A stretch of 64,000 nucleotides of DNA from Pseudomonas sp. HR96. Lineage in GTDB: Bacteria > Pseudomonadota > Gammaproteobacteria > Pseudomonadales > Pseudomonadaceae. The notes under the pieces were generated by a model. The model was not told where the DNA came from, did not search any database, and saw nothing but the letters and a program-made list of their open reading frames with translations. The stretch lies in NCBI RefSeq assembly GCF_034059295.1, contig NZ_CP139141.1:1285001-1349000 (forward strand). The letters run 5' to 3'. The position numbers and the translations under genes are program-made. The stretch's first letter is position 1. Each line of letters starts with the position of its first letter. Positions 27,046-63,796 of the stretch are shown here, one piece after another.

Positions 27046-27122
<77 letters not shown>

Positions 27123-27320: not shown

Positions 27321-27397
<77 letters not shown>

Positions 27398-51706: not shown

Positions 51707-54700
51707 CTACCCCCTGATCAACTTGTCCCGCAACTCCCCATCCTCCGGCTGCCAATACTGCGGCTTGCCCGCGATCAGCGCGGCCGCCGGCACCCCATCG
51801 CGGAACACCACGCGGTTGCTCGCCAGCGCTGGCACCTTGCTGCCCGGCAGCAAGGTGCCGACCAGGTTCAGTGGGTCGCTGGCGCTGATTGCGACCAGGC
51901 TGGCATCCACAGGCCGCTTGCGCACCTCGCGCAGCACCGCCACCGCCTCGGGCAGGGCGAACTGCTCGCCGGCCAGGCCGCTGACAAAACGCCCGCCGCG
52001 GATCTCGCCACGGGCCTCCAGACGATGGAAGGTGCGCAGCAGCTCGCGCCAGCTCGGCAGCCACTCGGCCTCACGCTCCAGCAACCGCCAGAACACCACG
52101 CCGTAGCGGCGCAGCAAGGTCAGGGCAATGTGTTCGAGCAGCTCCGATCGATCGACACTGTCGGCCGCGGGTCGGCGCAGCAGGCCCCAGCGCCCGGCAT
52201 CGTCCATGCCGCCGATGAAGGCGCCGCGGCCTCGGCGCGGGCTGCGGCTCTGGCGCTTGCCAGGTGGCGTGATCAGGGCTCGCAGGCCGGCAAAGCTGTC
52301 GGCACTGGCCAGGCCGGCCGCGACCAGCTCCTGCAGCGCGGTTTCCAGCTCGCTGGGCAATAGCCGCGCTTCGCCGGTCAGCTCGTCGAAAAACGAGGCG
52401 CCCTGTTCGCTTAGCGCGGCGTGCACCTTTTGCGCCCTCGGGGTCAACTGCTCGGGATCGAACGGCTCGCTCAGGCCGCGCCACAGATTGACCCGGTTGC
52501 GCGGCAACAACACGATCGGCGTGCTGCGCAGCGTCGCGGTGACGCCTTTGCTCGCAGCGGCAAGGCGCGTCCACACGGTCTTGCCCGAGCGGCAGGCTTC
52601 GTCCAACCAACTGGAGGTGTAGTCCTTGAGCCGTGGTGCGAGCAGTTCGTGCTCCCACGCAGCGGCCGCTGCCGAAAAGCCCTCGAACTGCCCGAGTACT
52701 TCGCCCAGCGCGGCCTGACCCTGCAGCTGGGTGGCCGGCGCCAGGTGTTGCCAGTCGAACAGAAAACGCATGAAGTCTTGCAGCGACACCGGCTCGATCT
52801 CGCGGCGCAGGCGCTTGACCGTGTAGCGGTGAATACGCGCCAGCAGGTGGCGTTCGCACCATTGGGTCTCACGCACGTTGGGCACAAACTGCCCGCGCAA
52901 CACGTAACCTTCGCGCTCCAACACTGCCAGCGCCTGTTCCACCTCTACCGGTGGCAGGTCCAGCGGTGCGCAGATCTGCCCCAGGCGCAGCGGGCCGAAG
53001 CCGCTCAGCCGGGCACGGACGATTTCCACCTGGGCCGCCTCGCGCGACCAGGCTTCGGCGAACCCTGGCAGCGGTTGCAGCGCCGGCCGCAACGCCGCTT
53101 GTGGATAAATCGCCTGGAGGCAGGTGAGCCGCTCGATCGGCAGCCACAGGTGCCGTTCGCCGCTGCCAAGACAGGTGGCGCGGCCGCTTTGGGCCAGGCC
53201 CTCGAGCCAAGCTTGCCAGAGGGGATGGGCGTCCACCTCGGCCTGTTCGACCACCCCGAGGGTCATCAGCGCTTCGTGCATCTCGTCGCGGTTGGCCGGG
53301 GCCGGCCAGGCTTGCTCGGCCACCGAGTCGATGGCGTCGGCGTCCAGGGCGCCAAGGTCATCGGCCGACTGTGGCTCGCTCCAGCGCCGGCTGAGCACCG
53401 CCTGGGTGCGCCGCTCTTCCAGCGGCGCGTCGTCGAGAAACGCGTAGGGCCGGGCATTGAGGATCGCCGCCGCCAGGGGCGAAGGCGCCGGCAGGTCGCG
53501 GGCGATCAAGCGCACCTGGCCTTGCTCCATGCGCCGCAGCAGGGCCAGCCAGGCCTCGCTGTCCATGGCCTCGTGCAGGCAGTCGTCGAGTGTCTGTTCC
53601 ACCAGTGGGTGATCGGGGATCTCGCGCTCGCCGACCAGGTTCTCCAGGCAGGCAATCTGGTCTGGGAACACCGTGGCGATCAGGTCCTCGCTCTTCATCC
53701 GTTGCAGCTGCGGCGCCACTTTGCGCCCGCCTGCATAGCGCGGCAGGGCCAGGGCGGTGTTGGCATTCCAGCGCCAACGCACGCCGAACAGCGGTGCTTC
53801 GAGCACGGCCTGCACCAGAATCTGCTCGGCGCTGTTGGAGTGCAGGTAGCGCCAGACCTCGTCGAGCTCGAAGCTGTGGGTGGTGGACAGCGACAGCACG
53901 ATGGCGTCCTCGCTGGCCGCCGCCTGCAACTCGAAGTTGAAGGTGCGGCAAAAGCGCTTGCGCAGGGCCAGGCCCCAGGCGCGATTGACCCGGCTGCCGA
54001 ACGGGGTGTGGATGATCAGCTGGGTGCCACCGGACTCGTCGAAGAAGCGCTCCATGATCAGCGTGTCCTGCGAGGGCAGGGCGCCCAATGCCTGGCGAGT
54101 GCGAGCCAGGTAGTCAAGCAGTTGCTCGGCGCTGTCCAGGCCCAGACCGAGGTCATGCTGCAGCCATTGCACCAGCGGCGCCAGCTCGCCGCCGCTGGTG
54201 CTCAGGCGCTGGTCGATATCGGCCTGCAGGCGCGCCACCGCCACCGACAGCTCGTCACTACGCCCAGGCGCCTCGCCCAGCCAGAACGGAATGTTCGGCG
54301 GCATGCCTTGGGCGTCCTCGACGCGCACTCGCCCGGTGTCGATACGCAGGATGCGGTAGGAGGTGTTGCCCAGCTGGAAGATGTCGCCGGCCAGGCTCTC
54401 GACCGCGAAGTCTTCGTTGACGCTGCCGATGTTCAGGCCTTGGGGCTCTAGGATGACGCCATAGTCGGCGTTGTCCGGGATCGTGCCGCCACTGGTCACG
54501 GCGGTCAGCTTGCTGCCGCGGCGGCCGCGCAGCAGGCCAGTCACCGCATCGCGATGCAGATAGGCGCTGCGCACGCCCTGGCGGCCGCTGTAGCCTTCGG
54601 CGAGCATGCGCAGCAGGGCCTGGTAGTGCCTTTCGTCCAATGTCTGATAGGGCATGGCCTGGCGGAACAATGCCAGCAGCTGGTCTTCATGCCACTCCTG

Positions 54701-55984
54701 GCAGCTGACCTCGGCGATGATCTGCTGCGCTACGACGTCGAGTGGCGCCACTGGCACGTGGAGGATATCCAGCTCGCCGCGGCGCACGCAGTCAAGCAGG
54801 GCCACGCATTCGATCAGGTCGTCGCGCGAGGTGGCGAACAGACGCCCCTTGGGCGTGCCCCCGACCTGGTGGCCGGAGCGGCCGACCCTTTGCAGAAACG
54901 CGGAAATGCTGCGCGGCGAGGCGATCTGGCACACCAGGTCGACGTCGCCGATGTCGATGCCCAGCTCCAGCGAGGCGGTGGCCACCAGCACTTGCAGCTC
55001 ACCGGCCTTGAGGCGTTGCTCGGCCAGCAGGCGCTGTTCCTTGGCCAGGCTGCCATGGTGCGCGGCCACGGCTTCGCGGCCCAGGCGGTCACTGAGATGG
55101 CGAGTCATGCGCTCGGCCAGGCGCCGGGTGTTGACGAAGATCAGGGTGGTGCGGTGCTCGCGGGCCAGCGCGGCGAGGCGGTCGTAGACCAGCTCCCAGA
55201 CATCGTTGGCCAGCACCGCGCCGAGCGGCACCGGCGGCACCTCGATGGCCAGGTCGCGCGGCCGCGCGTGGCCGATGTCGACGATGGCGCAGGGGCGCTC
55301 ATGGCCGACCAGAAAACGCGACACCCGCTCGATGGGTCTTTGCGTGGCCGACAGGCCGATGCGCCGCAACGGTTGCCCGCTCAAGGCCTGCAGACGCTCC
55401 AGGCTCAGCGCCAGGTGGCTGCCGCGCTTGCTGGCGGCGATGGCGTGGATCTCGTCGACGATCACCGTGCGTGCCGAGGCCAGCATGCGTCGCCCCGAGT
55501 CCGAGCCGAGCAGTACGTACAGCGACTCAGGGGTGGTGACGAGAATATGCGGCGCCCGCTTGCGCATGGCGTTGCGCTCTTTTTGCGGGGTGTCGCCGGT
55601 GCGCACGGCGGTCAGGATTGGTACCACCGGCAAGCCCATGCGCGCCAGCTGCTCGCTGATGCCGGCCAGCGGGTTCTGCAGGTTGATCTGTATATCGTTG
55701 GACAGCGCCTTGAGCGGTGACACGTACACCACCAGGGTCTGCTCGGGCAGCTGGCCGCCATGGGCCAGGCCCTCGCGGACCAGCTCGTCGATCACTGCAA
55801 GGAAGGCCGTGAGGGTCTTGCCCGACCCCGTAGGCGCCGCGATCAGGGTCGAGCGCCCAGCCTGGATCAACGGCCAGGCCTGGGCCTGGGCCGCCGTCAC
55901 GGCCGGGAAGCACTGGTCGAACCAGGCCCGCGTGGCCGGGTGAAAGCCGTGCCACAGCGGGTCGTTGCGCGCGGGGAGATTCAT
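51707..55984 (-). CDS. lhr: large ATP-dependent helicase Lhr
   Basis: A 1425-residue superfamily 2 helicase. Walker A is APTGSGKT at 50-57, motif Ic TTPESL at 150-155, the DEIH box at 177-180 and motif VI QRVGRSGHQVGG near 365. Then come the winged-helix, beta-sheet and long C-terminal domains of bacterial Lhr. It has 3'-5' DNA/DNA-RNA unwinding and a repair role by family. The start MNLPARNDPLWHGFHP is at 55984. Its 5' flank abuts the decayed end of the bacteriocin immunity array. Confidence 0.95.
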   Translation of the reverse strand: MNLPARNDPLWHGFHPATRAWFDQCFPAVTAAQAQAWPLIQAGRSTLIAAPTGSGKTLTAFLAVIDELVREGLAHGGQLPEQTLVVYVSPLKALSNDIQINLQNPLAGISEQLARMGLPVVPILTAVRTGDTPQKERNAMRKRAPHILVTTPESLYVLLGSDSGRRMLASARTVIVDEIHAIAASKRGSHLALSLERLQALSGQPLRRIGLSATQRPIERVSRFLVGHERPCAIVDIGHARPRDLAIEVPPVPLGAVLANDVWELVYDRLAALAREHRTTLIFVNTRRLAERMTRHLSDRLGREAVAAHHGSLAKEQRLLAEQRLKAGELQVLVATASLELGIDIGDVDLVCQIASPRSISAFLQRVGRSGHQVGGTPKGRLFATSRDDLIECVALLDCVRRGELDILHVPVAPLDVVAQQIIAEVSCQEWHEDQLLALFRQAMPYQTLDERHYQALLRMLAEGYSGRQGVRSAYLHRDAVTGLLRGRRGSKLTAVTSGGTIPDNADYGVILEPQGLNIGSVNEDFAVESLAGDIFQLGNTSYRILRIDTGRVRVEDAQGMPPNIPFWLGEAPGRSDELSVAVARLQADIDQRLSTSGGELAPLVQWLQHDLGLGLDSAEQLLDYLARTRQALGALPSQDTLIMERFFDESGGTQLIIHTPFGSRVNRAWGLALRKRFCRTFNFELQAAASEDAIVLSLSTTHSFELDEVWRYLHSNSAEQILVQAVLEAPLFGVRWRWNANTALALPRYAGGRKVAPQLQRMKSEDLIATVFPDQIACLENLVGEREIPDHPLVEQTLDDCLHEAMDSEAWLALLRRMEQGQVRLIARDLPAPSPLAAAILNARPYAFLDDAPLEERRTQAVLSRRWSEPQSADDLGALDADAIDSVAEQAWPAPANRDEMHEALMTLGVVEQAEVDAHPLWQAWLEGLAQSGRATCLGSGERHLWLPIERLTCLQAIYPQAALRPALQPLPGFAEAWSREAAQVEIVRARLSGFGPLRLGQICAPLDLPPVEVEQALAVLEREGYVLRGQFVPNVRETQWCERHLLARIHRYTVKRLRREIEPVSLQDFMRFLFDWQHLAPATQLQGQAALGEVLGQFEGFSAAAAAWEHELLAPRLKDYTSSWLDEACRSGKTVWTRLAAASKGVTATLRSTPIVLLPRNRVNLWRGLSEPFDPEQLTPRAQKVHAALSEQGASFFDELTGEARLLPSELETALQELVAAGLASADSFAGLRALITPPGKRQSRSPRRGRGAFIGGMDDAGRWGLLRRPAADSVDRSELLEHIALTLLRRYGVVFWRLLEREAEWLPSWRELLRTFHRLEARGEIRGGRFVSGLAGEQFALPEAVAVLREVRKRPVDASLVAISASDPLNLVGTLLPGSKVPALASNRVVFRDGVPAAALIAGKPQYWQPEDGELRDKLIRG

Positions 55985-56084
55985 ACCCGATTAATGCGGG
56001 CACGAAGGCAAGGTTGCAAGGTTGTTCGTCGGGAGGGGTAACGGATTCCGTTATCGGGAGCTGTACGGGTTCCAAGACTATTTG

Positions 56085-56214
56085 CGTTGGTGTTGTGCCT
56101 CGCTGCCTTCAAATATCCAATAACAGGCGTCGCGACAATAGTTTCATTTTCGACCAGCTCCTTGTAGGTCGACCCTCAACCCTCTATAAGCGCTTATATA
56201 GTAGGATTATTCAT
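56085..56214 (-). pseudogene. bacteriocin immunity gene remnant (N-terminal end, array distal copy)
   Basis: Reading minus from ATG 56214 gives MNNPTI then a stop (TAA) at codon 7, a second stop (TGA) at codon 13, then TYKELVENETIVATPVI, clearly homologous to MNNPTIEALIAGLGLTYKAL of the intact copy. A 1-base deletion follows (GGATATTTGAAGG against GAAGTATTTGAAGG), after which homology fades toward lhr. Just before the ATG, TGG TAT GAA TGA (Trp-Tyr-Glu-stop) overlaps the ATG exactly as the live toxin stop overlaps its immunity gene. Confidence 0.82.
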
Positions 56215-56287
56215 TCATACCATTGCGGTCTAATTGTTTTTAGCGGGGACGAAAACACCTGAATCGGGCGTATATGCGCGGCTGGAT

Positions 56288-56368
56288 GTGGGAAGGGCCA
56301 AGCTCCAGAGCCGTCAAGACTGAAGATCAAACCGGCTTGCCAAGTCTTGGGTGGCTTTCCCTTCCCAC
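56288..56368. repeat. REP-like hairpin unit, copy A
   Basis: GTGGGAAGGG ... CCCTTCCCAC inverted arms enclosing about 60 bases, immediately 3' of the immunity gene at 56381-56851. It is near-identical to the unit 636 bases away (56924-57004). Confidence 0.75.
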
Positions 56369-56380
56369 GTTGGTTCGTGC

Positions 56381-56851
56381 TTAATCGTCTGTGTAAGGTA
56401 AGGCAAAGGTCAGGCGTCTAACGACCATTTCCGTGTTGTAGGTCACATAGAGATATTTTGGGGGTGTAGCTTCGGCATCAATTTCGTATTTGTCCCATCC
56501 TCCGGTGGGGGGTAGCGGGTAGGGCAATCGATTATAGCCCCGCGATTCCAGTGGGTTCCCCAACCTTTCCCTCGTCTCAATCTGCGTTCGGCCCGCATAA
56601 TGCTCGGGGATCGCTCCCTCGAATATTCCAATTTCATCATCGTCTTCCAGGATATGTATGGATATTTTGCTTACGATGCCGCTATCGGCATCTATACCGA
56701 TTTCAATTCCGTTCGCAGGGACGGTGTACTGCGATTCACTGCCTTCAAATACTTCAATAATAGGCGTCGCGCCAATAGTCTCGTTGGCAACCAGCGCCTT
56801 GTACGTCAAGCCCAAGCCAGCTATGAGCGCTTCTATAGTAGGATTATTCAT
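56381..56851 (-). CDS. orphan bacteriocin immunity protein (array copy 4)
   Basis: A 156-residue acidic protein starting MNNPTIEALIAGLGLTYKAL. It shares the layout of all array members: a helical N-terminus (1-25), a TP(I/V)IE(V/I)(F/Y)EGS element, an acidic loop, PE(H/R)Y(A/T)GRTQ, RLPYPL-P--GGWDKYE and KYLYVTYNTEM. I recall this as a DUF6392-like family found beside Pseudomonas pyocins, but that name is unverified. The ATG overlaps a TGA that ends a decayed toxin tail (TGG TAT AAA TGA). Its last 40 residues are identical to those of the copy at 57017-57496, which suggests recent duplication or conversion. Confidence 0.82.
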   Translation of the reverse strand: MNNPTIEALIAGLGLTYKALVANETIGATPIIEVFEGSESQYTVPANGIEIGIDADSGIVSKISIHILEDDDEIGIFEGAIPEHYAGRTQIETRERLGNPLESRGYNRLPYPLPPTGGWDKYEIDAEATPPKYLYVTYNTEMVVRRLTFALPYTDD

Positions 56852-56923
56852 TTATACCATCGCGGTTTAATTGTTTGGGCGGGGACGAAAATACTTGGAT
56901 CGGGCGTATATGCGCGGTTGGAT

Positions 56924-57004
56924 GTGGGAAGGGCCAAGCTCCAGAGCCGTCAAGACTGAAGATCAAACCGTCTTGCCCAGTTTTGGGTGGCTTTCCCTTC
57001 CCAC
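56924..57004. repeat. REP-like hairpin unit, copy B
   Basis: Same GTGGGAAGGG / CCCTTCCCAC arms as copy A, offset by 636 bases. It lies 12 bases after the stop of the immunity gene at 57017-57496. Confidence 0.75.
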
Positions 57005-57016
57005 GTTGGTTCGTGC

Positions 57017-57496
57017 TTAATCGTCTGTGTAAGGTAAGGCAAAGGTCAGGCGTCTAACGACCATTTCCGTGTTGTAGGTCACATAGAGGTATTTTGGGGG
57101 TGTAGCTTCGGCATCAATTTCATATTTGTCCCATCCCCCGCTGGGGGGTAGCGGGTACGGCAATCGATGGTAGCCCTTCGATTCCACTGGGGTTCCCAAC
57201 TTTTCTCTGGTCTGCGCCTGGGTCTGCCCGGCATAACGCTCGGGCAGAGCCCCTTCAAAGATCCAGCTTTCGTCGTCCGGTTTCAGGATATCTATAGATA
57301 CCTTCGTAACTATCCCGCTAGCAGCATTGATGCTGAGTTGGACTCCGTCAACAGGGATGGTGTATTGAAGGTGGCTCCCTTCGGATATCTCGATTGGGCG
57401 CGCTGCGTTGATCTTTTTGCTGGCTCCCAGCTCCCGATATGCCCAGCCTAAACAGGATATCAGGGTCTCTACAGTAGGAGTGTTAATTAATATCAT
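57017..57496 (-). CDS. orphan bacteriocin immunity protein (array copy 3, relocated start codon)
   Basis: A 159-residue immunity paralogue. Aligned with the others, its ancestral start Met has become Ile (ATT AAC ACT CCT, against ATG AAT AAT CCT). The present ATG at 57496 lies three codons upstream, inside the former toxin tail, and adds MIL. That ATG overlaps a TGA created in the toxin frame, so the ATGA coupling is re-formed. The core motifs EISEGS, PERYAGQTQ and GGWDKYEIDA are intact. It probably still folds. It is preceded by a toxin deletion scar and a duplicated promoter block, so it may be independently expressed. Confidence 0.8.
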   Translation of the reverse strand: MILINTPTVETLISCLGWAYRELGASKKINAARPIEISEGSHLQYTIPVDGVQLSINAASGIVTKVSIDILKPDDESWIFEGALPERYAGQTQAQTREKLGTPVESKGYHRLPYPLPPSGGWDKYEIDAEATPPKYLYVTYNTEMVVRRLTFALPYTDD

Positions 57497-57558
57497 CCCA
57501 ATCTCATATTCTAATTGTGCAGGTCATTCCTCGCTCTTTCGAGCGCTCTCTTATCCAT
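57493..57558 (-). pseudogene. deletion scar of a second bacteriocin toxin gene
   Basis: Reading minus from ATG 57558: M D K, then R-ALERARNDLHN-stop-NMRLG-stop. This aligns codon for codon with the live toxin's C-terminus (ALEVARAELHEYNRKLGW). Tyr TAC is replaced by TAG and Trp TGG by TGA. The start codon region and upstream block resemble the live toxin's 5' end, so an internal deletion removed nearly all of a second toxin gene and left start plus about 20 C-terminal codons. Not expected to make a functional product. Confidence 0.78.
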
Positions 57559-57567
57559 GCCTTGCTT

Positions 57568-57655
57568 GTTACCAAGGGCCATGTTCGTCGAGCAGGCCAC
57601 GTGCGTATGCCAGACGGTTCTCTGATGCTTGTAGGAAATTTCCTAACATTGGTGA
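57568..57655 (-). promoter_or_regulatory. duplicated bacteriocin upstream block, copy 1
   Basis: This 88-base block matches 61380-61467, upstream of the live toxin, at 80 of 88 positions. It contains the perfect 14-bp palindrome TAGGAAATTTCCTA at 57632-57645. Similarity stops on the far side of the palindrome, within about 10 bases. It lies 10 bases upstream of the scar start codon, as the other copy lies 19 bases upstream of the toxin. It is probably promoter and leader; the palindrome is an operator candidate. Confidence 0.65.
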
Positions 57656-57687
57656 ATAAAGTATTGTTAGCTGCAGACTCAGTGTTA

Positions 57688-57735
57688 GGGGGGGGCGCCC
57701 TCCAGCGGCTAATGTTCAGGTCAGCAGCTGGGGGT
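57688..57735. repeat. degenerate REP-like element
   Basis: A G-rich run followed by CAGCGGCTAATG-ttcagg-TCAGCAGCTGGGGG, a decayed version of the hairpin at 61505-61562. It lies 3' of the immunity gene at 57749-58225, the same relative place as in the other units. Confidence 0.45.
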
Positions 57736-57748
57736 ACTTAGGTGCAAG

Positions 57749-58225
57749 TCAATCGTCTGGATGGGGGAGAATGAAAGTCAGATGGCTAACCATCATTTCA
57801 GTGTCGTAGGTTACATAAAGATATTTTGAAGGCAGTCTACCCTCATCGAGTTCGTATTTGTCCCATCCGCCGACTGGGCTCAGAGGGTAAGGCAATCGAT
57901 GATAGCCCTTTGACTCCAGTGGGGCCCCCAGTTTTTCCCGCGTCTGCGCCTGAGTACGCCCGGTATAGCGCTCAGGCAGCGTGCCATCAAACATCTCGCT
58001 TTCTTCATCGTCATCTTCAGGGAGTATGCTTATTGAGAGTTTCTCTACGATATCACTAGCGGATAGGATGGTAAGAGAAACGCCTTTTGCAGGATTGGTA
58101 TATTGCTGGAGGCTTCCTTCATAAACGTCAATCACAGGCGTATCAGCAACGATGTTGTTGGTGATCAACTCTTGATGTGTTGAGCCTAAATGGTTGATGA
58201 TTGCTTCTACTTCCAGACTGTTCAT
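57749..58225 (-). CDS. orphan bacteriocin immunity protein (array copy 2)
   Basis: A 158-residue paralogue starting MNSLEVEAIINHLGSTHQEL at ATG 58225. It is closest to the toxin-adjacent immunity protein (MNSLEIEAIIKNLGSTRQML), with the same length and motifs (FDGTLPERYTGR, GGWDKYELD, KYLYVTYDTEM). The bases before the ATG, CTGGGAAGGCACGAATGA, are the decayed end of a toxin gene (live toxin CTGGGATGGTACGAATGA). The unit was thus copied with its toxin tail. It has an acidic insertion (PEDDDEES) near residue 90. No toxin partner is left beside it. Confidence 0.82.
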   Translation of the reverse strand: MNSLEVEAIINHLGSTHQELITNNIVADTPVIDVYEGSLQQYTNPAKGVSLTILSASDIVEKLSISILPEDDDEESEMFDGTLPERYTGRTQAQTREKLGAPLESKGYHRLPYPLSPVGGWDKYELDEGRLPSKYLYVTYDTEMMVSHLTFILPHPDD

Positions 58226-58303
58226 TCGTGCCTTCCCAGTTATTGAGTAGGGGTTGTTTATACTTGATTCGGCGCGCATGTGCGGTTGCAGAGGAATATG
58301 GCA

Positions 58304-58377
58304 GGAGGCAAAACCCTCGGGCTTATGATGTCGAAGATTAAGGCGCCTTGCGATCACTCGAGGGGCCTTGCCCCTCC
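58304..58377. repeat. REP-like hairpin unit
   Basis: GGAGGCAAAACCCTCG mirrored by CGAGGGGCCTTGCCCCTCC, lying 3' of the immunity pseudogene at 58396-58572. Confidence 0.65.
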
Positions 58378-58395
58378 CGCGTCGGCTCACTTCGA

Positions 58396-58572
58396 TCATC
58401 TGTAACGGGCAGGGCAGGGGTCAGACGGTTAACTATCATTTTCCGTGTTGTAGCTCACGTAAAGATATTTCAGGGATACAGCTACGGTATCAATTCCGTA
58501 TGGGTCACATCCTCCGCTCGGGGGCAGAGGGTACGGCAATCGCTGGTAGCCCTTCTATTCCACTGGGGTTCC
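58396..58572 (-). pseudogene. bacteriocin immunity pseudogene (C-terminal part)
   Basis: The minus frame gives VE-stop-KGYQRLPYPLPPSGG-CDPYGID, then SLKYLYVSYNTEN and a stop. It is homologous to VESKGYHRLPYPLPPSGGWDKYEID and KYLYVTYNTEM of intact copies. Defects: TCG to TAG at the Ser codon, a 1-base insertion after NTE that shifts the end, and loss of the N-terminal half. The 5' boundary coincides with a REP remnant (58573-58602), so a REP-linked rearrangement probably cut it. Confidence 0.85.
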
Positions 58573-58602
58573 CGAGCGGTTGATATTCAGATCAACAGCT
58601 CG
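58573..58602. repeat. REP remnant at pseudogene boundary
   Basis: CGAGCGGTTGAT-attcag-ATCAACAGCTCG, the central part of the hairpin seen complete at 61505-61562. It lies 3' of the toxin-adjacent immunity gene. Confidence 0.6.
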
Positions 58603-58635
58603 GGGCGGCTTACCCTCCTCCAACTTTGGTCCAAG

Positions 58636-59112
58636 TCATTCAGCTGTATAGGGCAGAATGAAAGTGAGACGGTCCACCATCATTTCAGTGTTGTAGGTTA
58701 CATAAAGATATTTTGTGGGTAGCCCACCTGTATCGAGTTCGTATTTATCCCACCCTCCGACTGCGCTCAGCGGGTAAGGCAATCGATGATAGCCCTTTGA
58801 CTCCAGTGGAGGGCCCAGATTTTCCCTTGTCTGCGCCTGATTCCGCCCGGTATAGCGCTCAGGCAGAGTGCCGTCAAAGATCTCATTCTCCCTCTCGCCA
58901 TCTTCATGCTGTATGCGTACTGAGAGTTTCACTGCTATACCGCTAGCAGCCAGGATCGTAAGAGATATCCCTTTCGCAAGTATGGTGTATTGCTGGGCAC
59001 TCCCTTCAAAAATCTCAATCATAGGTGTATCAGCTACGATATGGTTGGCGATCAGCATTTGGCGTGTTGAGCCTAGATTCTTGATGATTGCTTCTATTTC
59101 CAGACTGTTCAT
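58636..59112 (-). CDS. cognate immunity protein of the adjacent bacteriocin
   Basis: A 158-residue cytoplasmic protein starting MNSLEIEAIIKNLGSTRQML at ATG 59112, which overlaps the toxin TGA (ATGA). This tight coupling is the norm for nuclease bacteriocins and their immunity proteins. An in-frame ATG at 59121 lies inside the toxin and is less likely. Motifs are those of the array family (possibly DUF6392, unverified). The acidic character (IQHEDGERENE, EIFEGS) would suit binding to a basic nuclease domain. No signal peptide is present. Confidence 0.88.
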   Translation of the reverse strand: MNSLEIEAIIKNLGSTRQMLIANHIVADTPMIEIFEGSAQQYTILAKGISLTILAASGIAVKLSVRIQHEDGERENEIFDGTLPERYTGRNQAQTRENLGPPLESKGYHRLPYPLSAVGGWDKYELDTGGLPTKYLYVTYNTEMMVDRLTFILPYTAE

Positions 59113-61361
59113 TCGTACCATCCCAGTTTTCGGTTGTATTCATGAAGCTCCGCTCTGGCTACTTCTAGTGCGGTCTCATCAAAGCCATGCTGAAGTAAAC
59201 CTTTCTTAATTGCGTCAAAATTTGAATTGACAGCATTCTTCAAATTGCTAGCATCCAACAGCTGTTTGTCGGCGGAATTGCGACCGCCCATGGTCTCGCT
59301 AAATTGATGGTGTATTTCTGACGGAATAGTAATGCTTGCTGCATTTTTTATGAATTTCACTTGCTGTTCAGAGTTCACGTCAGGCCTTTCATTTGTGAGA
59401 AATCTCTCCAAAGCCCGTCGAGACGGTATGTGATCCACATCCATCCCATCCTTTCTGCTTCTGCTGCTCAAATCATTATAACCACCCACTTCCAGCAATT
59501 CGGCCGGAGGGCGGGTTTCCATGATGAGGACGGGCGGCATCTGAGTGCCGGGGAAGATCAGTATCTGCGCGCCAAGCTCGACATCGTTGTCGCCTACGTC
59601 GACTTTGACCGGGGAGTTCAGCGGCATCAATGCCGCGCCCCGGTAGATGGCCGGCTTGGGTTGTTCGGCCGGCAGGCTGGTGGACGCGGAGGTCTGAGTG
59701 CCGGGCGGCGCTGCCGGGGTCCAAGTGAAGATCCTTGGCGGTGAATCGAGGCGAGCACTGTATTGCTGGTTTTCTTCGTCCCAGGTGGCCTCCAGCACCG
59801 GGACCGCGCCAGGCACCGGGACCACGAACAGATGGGCCTGATTGCCGGACGGGCGAATCATCAGCGAATGCGCGAGGGTGATCGACTCACCGCGCTCGGC
59901 AATGCCTTCGAGGTCAAGTCCGTTGGTGTCGAGCAGATCGCTGAGTGGGGTACTCAGCGCTACCCGGCGCTCGCCGTTGGCCAGGCTCGAGGGCCAGGCA
60001 AGGGCAAGGATGCCGACCAGAAAACCGCTGACCACACCGGCGGTTATCACCCCGGCAGCCGCCAGTTGGCCGACGGCGCTACGGATCGCGGCTTGCAACG
60101 CGGCCAGCTGCTGGGGAGGGAAGGGGGCTGCTCCAAAACCTCGGGCGCCGAGGATGGTCGACCCCGCCTGCGCGTTGTTGTACGCGTAGGTTCGGCTGGC
60201 TTCGAAGGCCTGTTGCAGAGCGGTGAATGGCGATCGCTGCGCCGCGCGCGCCGCTTGTGCCGCCGAATTCGCTGACTGCTGCGCGTCACGCGCGACGACC
60301 GCCTGGTTCAATCGAGCTTCGGCCTGTGCAGCCCGGGACTGCAATTGGCCGAAGGCCATGGCCGCTGCTTCCAGGTAGCGTGCCGACTCGCTATGAAAAA
60401 GCGCGGTATACAGTGCATGACTTGAACTGCCAGGGCTTGCCGCCTGCTGCAGACCGAGAAGCGAGTTGAGCGCCTCGAGCTCGGGTTTGCTCAGGGGCGG
60501 GCGAGCGGAGCGTATACCCGTGGCGGGCGCGCTGCCCACAGCGTTTCGATGGATTGCGGCAAGCTGGGCGGCGCCGGACTGGTGCTGCTGGAGTAGCTGA
60601 CTGACCCTGTGCTGCTGAAGGTCTCCGATCGCGGCGATGAGTTCGTTTTGAGCGAAACCAGGTAGTTGCCAGATCTGCAGCGGGATCTCATTTCTGAGAC
60701 GCTCGAGTCGCGCCTCAAGCAGAGCGATGGAGGCATCCAGATCGCCCGGCTCGGCGTCTTCTGCCTGATCCCGTAACTGACCCAGCTCATTCAAGGAATC
60801 ACTCAGGATTCTGGAAGCCTGCGCAAGGGCTTTCAGTTGGTGGGCAGCTCGGTAACTTTCACCCAGTGGGCCGTCGATGCCTAGCCAACTTCTGATCTCC
60901 TGGGGCGAGGAGCTTTGGTTGTGCTCTCTGAATCGTTGCGCGGCGATCTGATCGGTCAAAAAGAACGGCAGATGGCCGCTGGCGGCATAGGCTTTAACTA
61001 GATGCTGCGCATAGGCTGTTTGTTTACTTTGAACAAGGCCGAGGATGGCTTGGTGTTCAGCTGCGGCCCTTTGCCTATCGGCAAGATTGCCATCGGGGTT
61101 GGCTGCCTGCTTCGCTGAGGCTGCTTCAGCGGCCACAGTGCTGGGGGTGTTCTGGTGAACTGCGGCATATTCCGAGTCTATTGTTCTAATGTGCCGCCGT
61201 GATTCATTCAGCACCCGGCCTGCGTGGCCGGGTGCACCGGTCGTGCTGGCCTTGCCCCAACTTGAGCCGGGTAGACCTGTGTCGTTATATTCTGGCTTTG
61301 GGTTGATGTAGCCCTCTATATAGTCGAGGGGTAAATGTATACTTTGATCTTTCTGGTCCAT
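59109..61361 (-). CDS. S-type pyocin-like bacteriocin with putative HNH/His-Me-finger nuclease domain
   Basis: 750 residues from ATG 61361, with AAGGAG 9 bases upstream; no signal peptide. Residues 1-60 are a Gly/Pro-rich N-terminus (possible translocation region). Residues 85-400 are helical/coiled-coil and Ala/Gln-rich (receptor-binding or spacer). A hydrophobic hairpin follows at 433-456. Residues 460-615 resemble the Pyocin_S translocation domain (ITLAHSLMIRPSG, HLFVVPVPGAVPVLEATWD, PRIFTWTP). The C-terminal 130 residues carry DVDHIPSRRA at 641-650 and IPSEIHHQFSETMGGRN at 679-695, a His-rich pattern like HNH/ENDO VII-type toxins. The nuclease class is inference. The stop overlaps its immunity gene. 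Confidence 0.85.
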   Translation of the reverse strand: MDQKDQSIHLPLDYIEGYINPKPEYNDTGLPGSSWGKASTTGAPGHAGRVLNESRRHIRTIDSEYAAVHQNTPSTVAAEAASAKQAANPDGNLADRQRAAAEHQAILGLVQSKQTAYAQHLVKAYAASGHLPFFLTDQIAAQRFREHNQSSSPQEIRSWLGIDGPLGESYRAAHQLKALAQASRILSDSLNELGQLRDQAEDAEPGDLDASIALLEARLERLRNEIPLQIWQLPGFAQNELIAAIGDLQQHRVSQLLQQHQSGAAQLAAIHRNAVGSAPATGIRSARPPLSKPELEALNSLLGLQQAASPGSSSHALYTALFHSESARYLEAAAMAFGQLQSRAAQAEARLNQAVVARDAQQSANSAAQAARAAQRSPFTALQQAFEASRTYAYNNAQAGSTILGARGFGAAPFPPQQLAALQAAIRSAVGQLAAAGVITAGVVSGFLVGILALAWPSSLANGERRVALSTPLSDLLDTNGLDLEGIAERGESITLAHSLMIRPSGNQAHLFVVPVPGAVPVLEATWDEENQQYSARLDSPPRIFTWTPAAPPGTQTSASTSLPAEQPKPAIYRGAALMPLNSPVKVDVGDNDVELGAQILIFPGTQMPPVLIMETRPPAELLEVGGYNDLSSRSRKDGMDVDHIPSRRALERFLTNERPDVNSEQQVKFIKNAASITIPSEIHHQFSETMGGRNSADKQLLDASNLKNAVNSNFDAIKKGLLQHGFDETALEVARAELHEYNRKLGWYE

Positions 61362-61379
61362 GGCATAGATCTCCTTGGT

Positions 61380-61467
61380 GTTACCAAGGGCCATGTTCGG
61401 CGCGCAGGCTGCGTGCGTATGCCAGACGGTTCTCTGATGCTCGTGGGAAATTTCCTATGATTGGTGA
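61380..61467 (-). promoter_or_regulatory. bacteriocin upstream block, copy 2 (with palindrome)
   Basis: Matches 57568-57655 at 80 of 88 bases. It contains the palindrome GGAAATTTCC at 61446-61455, about 85 bases before the toxin ATG. Conservation of this stretch beside both the live and the deleted toxin argues that it carries the promoter and regulator site. The -35/-10 boxes could not be fixed, and no LexA box was recognised. Confidence 0.6.
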
Positions 61468-61498
61468 GGAAAAAGGATGGTTGGCAGCCGGCCCACGC

Positions 61499-61631: not shown

Positions 61632-63257
61632 TTAAGGGTATTTGCGACGGTCCGGCGCAGGCGGGAAATACTGGTACAGCCAAGTCTCGCTCAACGTATG
61701 GTCGTTGCTCTTGAGGAACAGGCGCATGTTTACCGGCTCGACGCTGTCGCTGTCCGGATACCAGTCGAAGCTGACGCGGTAGCCCTTGATGTCTGGGCGG
61801 GCCAGCACAGTAATGTCCTGCACCTTGCCCTGGGTGACGCTGACGATGGGTTCGATCTTCGCATCGGCCGCCAGGCGTTCCAGGCCACCGCCGACGAAGT
61901 CCACGGCAAAGCGCCGCGCCCAGACGTCCGGGTAATGCTCGCCCGGCGCCCAGCCTTCGAGAAAGCCGCCCATTCCCGAACGCGTGGTCTGCACCCGCGC
62001 CAGTGGCGTGCTCACGGGCGGCAGCGCGCTCCAATAGAGCTTGTAGCCGAAGGTCAGCGAGTCGCCGGCGACCACCGGTTTCTTCGGCGTCCAGAACGCA
62101 ACGATGTTGTCCAGGGTCTCGCCAGTGGTCGACAGCTCCATCAGGTTGACCGAGCCCTCGCCCCACGGCGTGGTTGGCTCGACCCACAGGCTCGGGCGCT
62201 GGTTGTACCAGTCGACGGTGTCTTCATAACTGGCGAAGTCGTGGTCGGTCTGGACCAGGCCGAAACCTTTCGGGTTGTTGTCGGCATAGGCGTTGAACTG
62301 CAGCTTGGGCGGGTTGTTCAGCGGACGGCAGATCCACTCGCCGTTGCCGCGCCACATGGCCAGGCGATCAGAGTCGTGGATCTGCGGGTGAATGGTGTCG
62401 CACATGTGCCGCTCGTCGGTGCCACAGCTGAACATGCTGGTCATGGTCGAAATGCCCAGCTGTTCGATGTCGGTACGCGCATTGATGTGCGCGGTGACTT
62501 CCATCACCACCTGTTCGGCCTGGCAGTCGATGTCGAAGCGGTAGGCGCCGGTGGCGCTCGGCGAGTCGAGCAGGGCGTAGACCACGAAGCGGGTGCCGTC
62601 CTTGGTCGGGCTTTCGAACCAGAACTTGGTGAAATCGGGAAACTCTTCCTGCTTGTGGGCGTAGGTGTCGATGGCCAGGCCACGGGCCGACAGACCGTAC
62701 TGGCCGGTCTTGTCCACGGCGCGAAAGTAGCTGGCGCCGAGGAACGAGAGAATGTCGTGGTGGTCGATTTCCGGTTGCTTGAACAGGCGAAAACCAGCGA
62801 AGCCGAGGTCGCCGGTCAACTGCTTGGTGTCGACCCCGGCGTTCTCGTACTTGAACAGCGACGGGCGGAAGTGCACCTCGCGCGCCTGCTGGCTGTCCTT
62901 GTCGACGCTGTACATGCGCACCGGCTGCTTGAAGTCCATGCCGACGTGGAAGAACTGCACGTCCAGTTGGCCATTGAGCTCTTTCCACAGCGAGTGGTTG
63001 GCGTCGTATTTGATGGCGTTGAATTGCAGCGGCTGCAATTTGGCCAGGGTCGGTGGCAGCACTTCTTTGCCGTTGACGTATGGCGCGCCGGCCATTTTCT
63101 TCGCCTCGGCCTGCAGCCAATCGAAGTCGAAGTGCTCGCTGTCGCCATTGGCGGCGGCGCCAGCGGCGAACACGCGCGCGCTCAGAAGGCCAGTAGCCGA
63201 CAGCCCGGTGTAGGCGGCCAGGGCCATGGAGGCCTTGAGAATATTCCTGCGATGCAT
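61632..63257 (-). CDS. opgD: periplasmic glucan biosynthesis protein OpgD (MdoD), Tat-exported
   Basis: A 541-residue periplasmic protein. The N-terminus [20 protein letters not shown] is a twin-arginine signal. The MdoG/OpgD beta-sandwich follows ([57 protein letters not shown]). It shapes osmoregulated periplasmic glucans; recent work assigns beta-glucanase activity to OpgD. It lacks a neighbouring opgGH operon here. The 239-base gap upstream (63258-63496) should contain its promoter. Confidence 0.95.
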
Positions 63258-63496: not shown

Positions 63497-63727
63497 TCAA
63501 AAGTCTTCTCGATCCTGAGGGTGGGTATAATCTCGACCATCGATCATGAAATCATCGGGAAGGCTGGCGAGCGCGTCGAATATTGCCGAGGCGTTAATCG
63601 TAATCTGGCGCAGGACTATCTCCTCGCCCCGTCGGAAGATTTCCACCCGGTCCGTATTGAGTCGAAACTCTTTTGGTAGCCTTACTGCCTGGCTGTTACC
63701 TGATTGGAATACTCGAGCGAAAGCCAT
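63497..63727 (-). CDS. VapB-type antitoxin (AbrB/MazE-like), without VapC
   Basis: A 76-residue protein from ATG 63727, with GAGAGGTG about 7 bases upstream (an ATG three codons further up is in frame). The N-terminal MAFARVFQSGNSQAVRLPKEF is the swapped-hairpin AbrB fold of VapB antitoxins. The C-terminal LASLPDDFMIDGRD tail normally wraps the VapC PIN nuclease. In the 239 bases downstream no PIN-domain gene is seen, so the antitoxin is orphan or its toxin was lost. Confidence 0.85.
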   Translation of the reverse strand: MAFARVFQSGNSQAVRLPKEFRLNTDRVEIFRRGEEIVLRQITINASAIFDALASLPDDFMIDGRDYTHPQDREDF

Positions 63728-63796
63728 GACCAGCACCTCTCTGGAAAAAATTTGCGTAAGTGTATACGCATCCAGAGGGTGCTAACCCTGCGGACT

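Follow-up and report, generated by a model that had tools for sequence, protein, structure and literature searches.

How does a bacterium come to carry a row of related immunity genes behind one intact toxin gene, and what might the supernumerary copies still do? A bacteriocin locus of Pseudomonas sp. HR96 raises this question. It lies within a stretch of 64,000 nucleotides (hereafter the window; positions 1285001-1349000 of contig C1, NZ_CP139141.1, in the 5.87-Mb genome G000), for which an earlier note, made from the sequence alone, had described a live toxin gene, four intact immunity paralogues and two pseudogenes on the same strand; those coordinates and that layout were confirmed. We consider it likely that this is a pyocin locus whose array grew in good part by toxin loss, with duplication or conversion remodelling it afterwards. 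Accepting this, the locus would be a bacteriocin locus built like those of S-type pyocins, with a TseN-like DNase warhead and an adjacent cognate DUF6392 immunity gene. Its array would have grown in good part through replacement or deletion of toxin modules, sparing the immunity gene at their 3' end, and later duplication or conversion would have involved the neighbouring immunity genes imm3, imm4 and psi6. At the level of sequence, the basis for this history is the paralogy of the copies, a toxin leader and tail ahead of imm3, a tail ahead of imm2, the mosaic identity of imm3 and imm4, and similar remnants in genomes of the same genus.

Organization of the locus

The genes are all on the minus strand, in the order toxin, imm1, psi5, imm2, imm3, imm4, psi6, and the features, with the evidence for each, are the following:

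61379-61472 (-), leader upstream of the live toxin, containing TAGGAAATTTCC (sequence; repeat D5)
59109-61361 (-), S-type-pyocin-like toxin of 750 aa (open reading frame, ORF; PF06958)
58636-59112 (-), imm1, putative cognate immunity gene, DUF6392 (ORF; PF19929; ATGA overlap with the toxin stop)
58396-58573 (-), psi5, remnant of an imm3-like immunity gene that keeps just its 3' part (alignment with imm3; one internal TAG)
58226-58249 (-), toxin 3'-end tail abutting imm2 (24-nt position-specific score)
57749-58225 (-), imm2, orphan immunity gene (ORF; PF19929; 73% identical to imm1)
57567-57660 (-), copy of the toxin leader (repeat D5, 89% to 61379-61472)
57488-57553 (-), degenerate 66-nt toxin 3' tail ahead of imm3, with in-frame stops (position-specific score)
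57017-57496 (-), imm3, orphan immunity gene (ORF; PF19929; paralogue identity)
56852-56875 (-), possible short toxin tail ahead of imm4, weak (24-nt score)
56381-56851 (-), imm4, orphan immunity gene that is near-identical to imm3 in its 3' part and spacer (300-nt repeat)
56085-56214 (-), psi6, disrupted fragment from the 5' end of an imm4-like gene (profile; repeat with imm4)

The second leader copy, which shares the motif TAGGAAATTTCC with the leader of the live toxin, and the toxin 3' tails ahead of orphans are additions to the earlier description. Every match of the immunity and nuclease queries in the genome itself fell inside the locus.

The toxin carries a probable TseN-like DNase domain

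As in S-type pyocins, the Pyocin_S domain (PF06958, toxin residues 487-614, E-value 3.5e-15) precedes the C-terminal killing domain, and the immunity gene overlaps the toxin gene in an ATGA at 59109-59112; the profile match confirms the previous designation of a 750-residue, S-type-pyocin-like toxin. Its C-terminus (residues ~612-750) is a TseN-like nuclease domain, matching the TseN chain 9j9w_B both as a single sequence (phmmer, E-value 8.1e-4) and through a profile of 24 nuclease domains (E-value 5.1e-8), while single-sequence searches of the PDB with the whole toxin or imm3 returned nothing at E-values up to 1. TseN stands for a DNase class of the type VI secretion system (T6SS) described in 2025, and was crystallised as the H254A mutant of its catalytic histidine, H254 (PMC12574953). 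A histidine, toxin residue 684, is invariant across the 24 nuclease sequences of alignment A5, and it aligns with an alanine of the crystallised TseN chain that is presumably residue 254. By its matches to 9j9w_B, the toxin warhead is probably a TseN-like DNase, a distant sequence homologue of TseN that is expected from this homology to have DNase activity.

Searches of Pfam, NCBIfam and PHROGs yielded no family name for this nuclease domain. The profile search of the toxin proposed earlier recovered Pyocin_S, and the nuclease could be tied to a DNase family through PDB 9J9W. Two candidate lines were discarded: PF14410 (GH-E, an HNH/ENDO VII model) matched 1 of the 24 nuclease relatives, with an E-value of 0.0095 that we judged too weak, and a structure predicted for the full-length toxin was of low quality (mean predicted local distance difference test, pLDDT, of 45) and was left unused.

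DUF6392 is probably the matching immunity family

The imm2, imm3 and imm4 copies are 57-73% identical to imm1. Relative to the gathering score of DUF6392 (PF19929, 25.9 bits), imm2 (30.0) and imm3 (33.5) are above and imm1 (22.8) and imm4 (19.9) below, yet the latter two match nearly the whole profile, and the matches of all four copies bear out a suggestion already made in the earlier note. The predicted immunity structure shows a TsiN-like fold, its best structural match being the other (TsiN) chain of the TseN crystal complex 9J9W. Because the nuclease resembles TseN and the predicted immunity fold resembles the partner chain of TseN, DUF6392 is probably the immunity family matching these nuclease domains. 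The imm1 product would be cognate to the live toxin and is predicted to sit over its active site in the manner of TsiN. Comparing the N and C halves of the immunity protein gave no support for an internal repeat (probability 2.9%).

We surveyed 398 genomes of the same genus, the present one included, of which 56 matched the immunity profile and 57 the nuclease. From these, 60 regions chosen by immunity matches were taken, comprising all places except G060, G180 and G324; nuclease matches without a nearby immunity match were left out, save for two large ORFs. Together with the window this gave 59 loci and 81 full-length immunity genes, a set from which partial copies (e.g. L087, L115, L118 and L123), split copies (L082, L093 and L114), psi5 and psi6 were dropped; the loci are not independent, L109 and L112 being near-copies. 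Directly behind a near-complete nuclease domain lie 45 of the 81 genes, another 16 follow a broken or truncated domain, and none was detected for the remaining 20. DUF6392 genes are genetically linked to the nuclease domain, and within the 45 cognate pairs the identity of the nucleases correlates with that of the immunity proteins (Mantel r 0.656, with 0 of 5000 permutations as high), a value inflated by relatedness. A scan of genome contigs with A1 confirmed no relative.

Remnants of toxins ahead of orphan immunity genes

Upstream of imm3, at 57567-57660, 94 nt of the live-toxin leader (61379-61472) recur with 89% identity. The 23-base core of the leader is found only at these two places in the genome, allowing up to 3 mismatches, and among 57 genomes searched (56 others, 35 of them of the same genus) the leader matched none but its own. 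Toxin tails were evaluated with a position-specific matrix derived from 28 cognate junctions outside the window and scored at window positions, a test that was chosen after the local-alignment result had been seen, with lengths of 24, 45 and 66 nt tried and all reported. The 66-nt score ahead of imm3 is reached at 2 of 127939 positions, namely itself and the end of the live toxin, and the 24-nt score at 10 of 127981; this tail carries in-frame stops. From the leader and the 66-nt tail, it appears that imm3 once followed another toxin gene, equipped with a leader of its own, of which almost the whole body has since been lost.

For imm2, the 24-nt score is reached at 2 of 127981 positions, again itself and the live toxin end, and in local alignment 0 of 1000 shuffles were as good. 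Toxin loss with the immunity gene retained is strongly supported at imm3 by these sequence traces, and is supported at imm2 by its 24-nt tail and by its closest relative found, an immunity protein from elsewhere (see below). Over 58401-58573, psi5 is identical to imm3 at 139 of 170 positions, and it lies close behind imm1, as if an incoming toxin-imm1 module had landed inside it.

Comparable remnants occur in the genus. Outside the window, 16 of the 33 non-cognate full copies lie behind a broken or truncated nuclease domain, and locus L071 forms a staircase in which a near-full nuclease domain, nuclease positions 81-132 and nuclease positions 102-132 are each followed by an immunity gene. Of 16 copies, full or partial, that lie outside the window, lack a profile remnant and were scored, the junction score was at least 8.7 in 6, two of which are the near-copies L109 and L112, but not in 10 (99.9% point of the null, -2.7). 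Two or more full immunity genes are present at 13 of the 59 loci, and on one strand at 12, the window locus included; the largest same-strand sets have four (the window and L088), followed by three (L071, L072, L082 and L093). At L097 (4318-5334), two immunity copies 94% identical and with identical junction sequences share a single open frame of 404 aa and may stem from a tandem duplication of recent date.

Duplication or conversion within the array

Repeats at an offset of 636-637 link the imm3 unit with that of imm4, and the imm4 unit with that of psi6; 300 nt are 95% identical between the imm3 and imm4 units at offset 636. The two genes are 86-87% identical in the C half and 52-53% in the N half. 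The start of psi6, a fragment corresponding by profile to immunity residues 1-38 and containing one TGA and one TAA, is 83% identical to the start of imm4 over 122 nt. A tree of the immunity proteins, a check proposed by the earlier note, placed the four window copies in one clade (100/100) among the 81 full genes. The offset repeats, the identity of the C halves and the single clade point to local duplication or gene conversion having acted as well, most clearly among imm3, imm4 and psi6.

The single clade, the 300-nt repeat and the contrast between halves would also suit an in-place tandem duplication of the immunity gene alone, the copies diverging with no separate toxin for each. We think this unlikely: it leaves unexplained why a toxin leader and a 66-nt tail precede imm3 and a tail precedes imm2, and P0012, the immunity protein of a relative that stands outside the 81-gene tree, is closer to the orphan imm2 (86%; 77% to the cognate imm1) than imm1 is (73%).

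Apart from the signs of local duplication or conversion, several results weigh against growth of the array by toxin loss. The imm2 tail is unexceptional at 45 nt (183/127960 positions) and 66 nt (1103/127939), and the 24-nt tails of imm4 (172/127981) and psi6 (1573/127981) are weak, so that toxin remnants were found ahead of imm2 and imm3 and only weakly ahead of imm4 and psi6. Local tail alignments were not significant for imm3 (139 of 1000 shuffles as good), imm4 (63 of 1000) or psi6 (131 of 1000). Elsewhere in the survey, orphans can be close to the live pair of another locus (L083, 96% to L085; L082_6474, 94% to L090), whereas the window orphans reach at best 31-40% with live pairs of other survey loci. 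Finally, in the argument for displacement (PMC5361080) the copies of one genome do not cluster, and here they do. Since the 636-bp-offset repeat suggests duplication or conversion, one toxin loss per copy is not established for imm4 and psi6. Of the successive toxin losses proposed in the earlier note, the support covers those at imm3 (leader and 66-nt tail) and imm2 (24-nt tail) and does not extend to a separate loss for every copy.

Genomic context and origin of the array

The locus is flanked on one side by a gene at 51707-55984 (-) that, from its protein sequence, we take to be lhr, and on the other by a presumed opgD-like gene at 61632-63257 (-), likewise named from its protein. An array acquired ready-made, with its carrier or by later recombination, would be uninformative on toxin loss in this lineage. 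Two observations are consistent with such an acquisition: the GC content of 56050-59499 is 0.43-0.55 in 300-base steps, against 0.65-0.73 in the profiled part of lhr and 0.54-0.69 in the toxin carrier, and in 15 relatives opgD was not found within the ~6 kb upstream of lhr, for which reason an empty lhr-opgD site could not be defined. Nevertheless, we give this origin a low probability, as it merely shifts the history to another host, in which the scars would still need explaining, and the leader had no match in the 56 other genomes.

Promoter and terminator scans gave counts similar to those of shuffled sequences (3 vs 3.5 and 7 vs 5.9, respectively), and therefore we build no claim on such sites. 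Further along the window are an ORF at 63497-63736 (-), which we take to resemble a VapB-type antitoxin, and two tRNA-Met genes in close proximity, 27046-27122 and 27321-27397 (-). No P-box (ATTGnn(n)GT repeats, as in PMC4905994) was seen by eye in the upstream sequence, where no scan was made.

Possible targets of the orphan immunity genes

The orphans imm2-imm4 have intact frames of 156-159 codons, and the ratio of nonsynonymous to synonymous change (dN/dS) is 0.19-0.32 in all six full-length pairs, a range that includes the time before orphaning and several pairs in which synonymous change is near saturation. In a neutral simulation that placed half of the observed differences on one copy, 5-20% of copies stayed stop-free, so the intact orphan frames are suggestive only. 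This result, and the broken state of psi5 and psi6, would be in line with orphans that are decaying debris without function, an explanation we find improbable given the three intact frames and their dN/dS, while the toxin tail of imm3 has stops. On our reading, the orphans would still be expressed and would guard the cell against DNase alleles carried by kin or by T6SS effectors of the same class.

The nuclease occurs on varied carriers: among the 45 near-complete nuclease ORFs, 15 have at least 820 aa, 15 match the Col-Pyo_DNase region of L067 and 12 match the PAAR region of L085. In addition, two large ORFs of relatives with haemagglutinin repeats (L145, 187-8190 (-), and L146, 20-12835 (+)) contain nuclease domains 36-37% identical to that of the window, which suggests a CdiA-like use of the same nuclease class. 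The matches to L067 and L085 and the haemagglutinin-repeat ORFs favour a defence aimed mainly at contact-delivered toxins of this DNase class (PAAR/T6SS or CdiA-like) rather than at pyocins, to which we assign a low probability; against it, the closest toxin relatives found, P0001 and the partial P0002, are both of the Pyocin_S type, with no PAAR domain listed for either.

P0002, a partial protein of 558 aa that lacks its first part and is encoded on a 3422-base contig, is 98.6% identical to the window toxin over residues 191-486, 98.4% over 487-615 and 74% in the nuclease, and is, judged by these identities, the same carrier with a different nuclease allele. The nuclease of P0001 is 84% identical to that of the window toxin, and P0001 and P0012 appear to be on one 4445-base contig; the likeness of P0012 to imm2 is a hint, and the best clue, to the target of imm2. 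Tentatively, the array might be an immunity library against allelic TseN-class DNases borne by the same pyocin carrier in kin, with imm2 answering the P0001 type and, as a guess, imm3 or imm4 the P0002 type. Recombination would then homogenise the C half while the N half diversifies, including the loop at residues 23-31, which is predicted to cover the DNase active site and varies among the four copies in 9 of 9 columns, as compared with 22 of 59 in residues 100-158. New specificities would arise in this manner inside the array.

Relation to known systems

The earlier note mentioned related immunity arrays of contact-dependent and polymorphic toxins but did not know this one as described; the pattern is in print for polymorphic toxins (PMC3482391), for T6SS (PMC5361080) and for a single pyocin orphan (PMC4905994), and thus the general idea is known. 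One close case is the pyocin S6/S2 locus of P. aeruginosa PAO1, with an S-type pyocin, an ATGA-coupled immunity gene and, in addition, an orphan that follows 250 nt left over from the 3' end of a toxin gene, from which toxin deletion was inferred and for which neutralisation is said to be shown (PMC4905994). It differs in its rRNase warhead and another immunity protein (77 aa), and one or two orphans of different types are described for PAO1, whereas four paralogues of one family are found here. The T6SS arrays of Vibrio cholerae, for which sequential displacement was modelled, similarly combine a single live effector with a series of orphan immunity genes behind it (PMC5361080), although alleles of one genome are unclustered there and form one clade, with duplication, here.

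TseN-TsiN of Acidovorax citrulli (PDB 9J9W) shares with this locus a DNase homologous by sequence and a predicted immunity fold, but TseN acts against fungi, is delivered by a T6SS and carries a nucleolar signal. The main text of PMC12574953 contains neither 'pyocin' nor 'bacteriocin', and its available part describes no immunity array. Polyimmunity loci also consist of tandem immunity paralogues, with small intergenic distances and, in the text available, no intervening toxins or cassettes; immunity strings at toxin 3' ends are regarded there as remnants of former recombination (PMC3482391). The present array departs from a homogeneous polyimmunity locus in the 165-410 bp between its intact immunity genes (410, 252 and 165 bp), in the toxin scars inside it and in the attached live toxin. 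Toxin loss versus immunity gain has also been discussed for E. coli plasmids (PMC12546727).

What is added here is the link between the warhead and DUF6392, and the scars of toxin loss at this locus. DUF6392 and a hitherto unclassified pyocin warhead are connected with a DNase-immunity complex of known structure, so that specificity becomes testable, and the scars can be read at the level of single bases, as leader plus tail, tail only, or an immunity gene that has lost its 5' part. Should the orphans protect, the locus would reveal how a producer keeps its immunity to older weapons carried by kin, and which region of the immunity protein evolves to this end.

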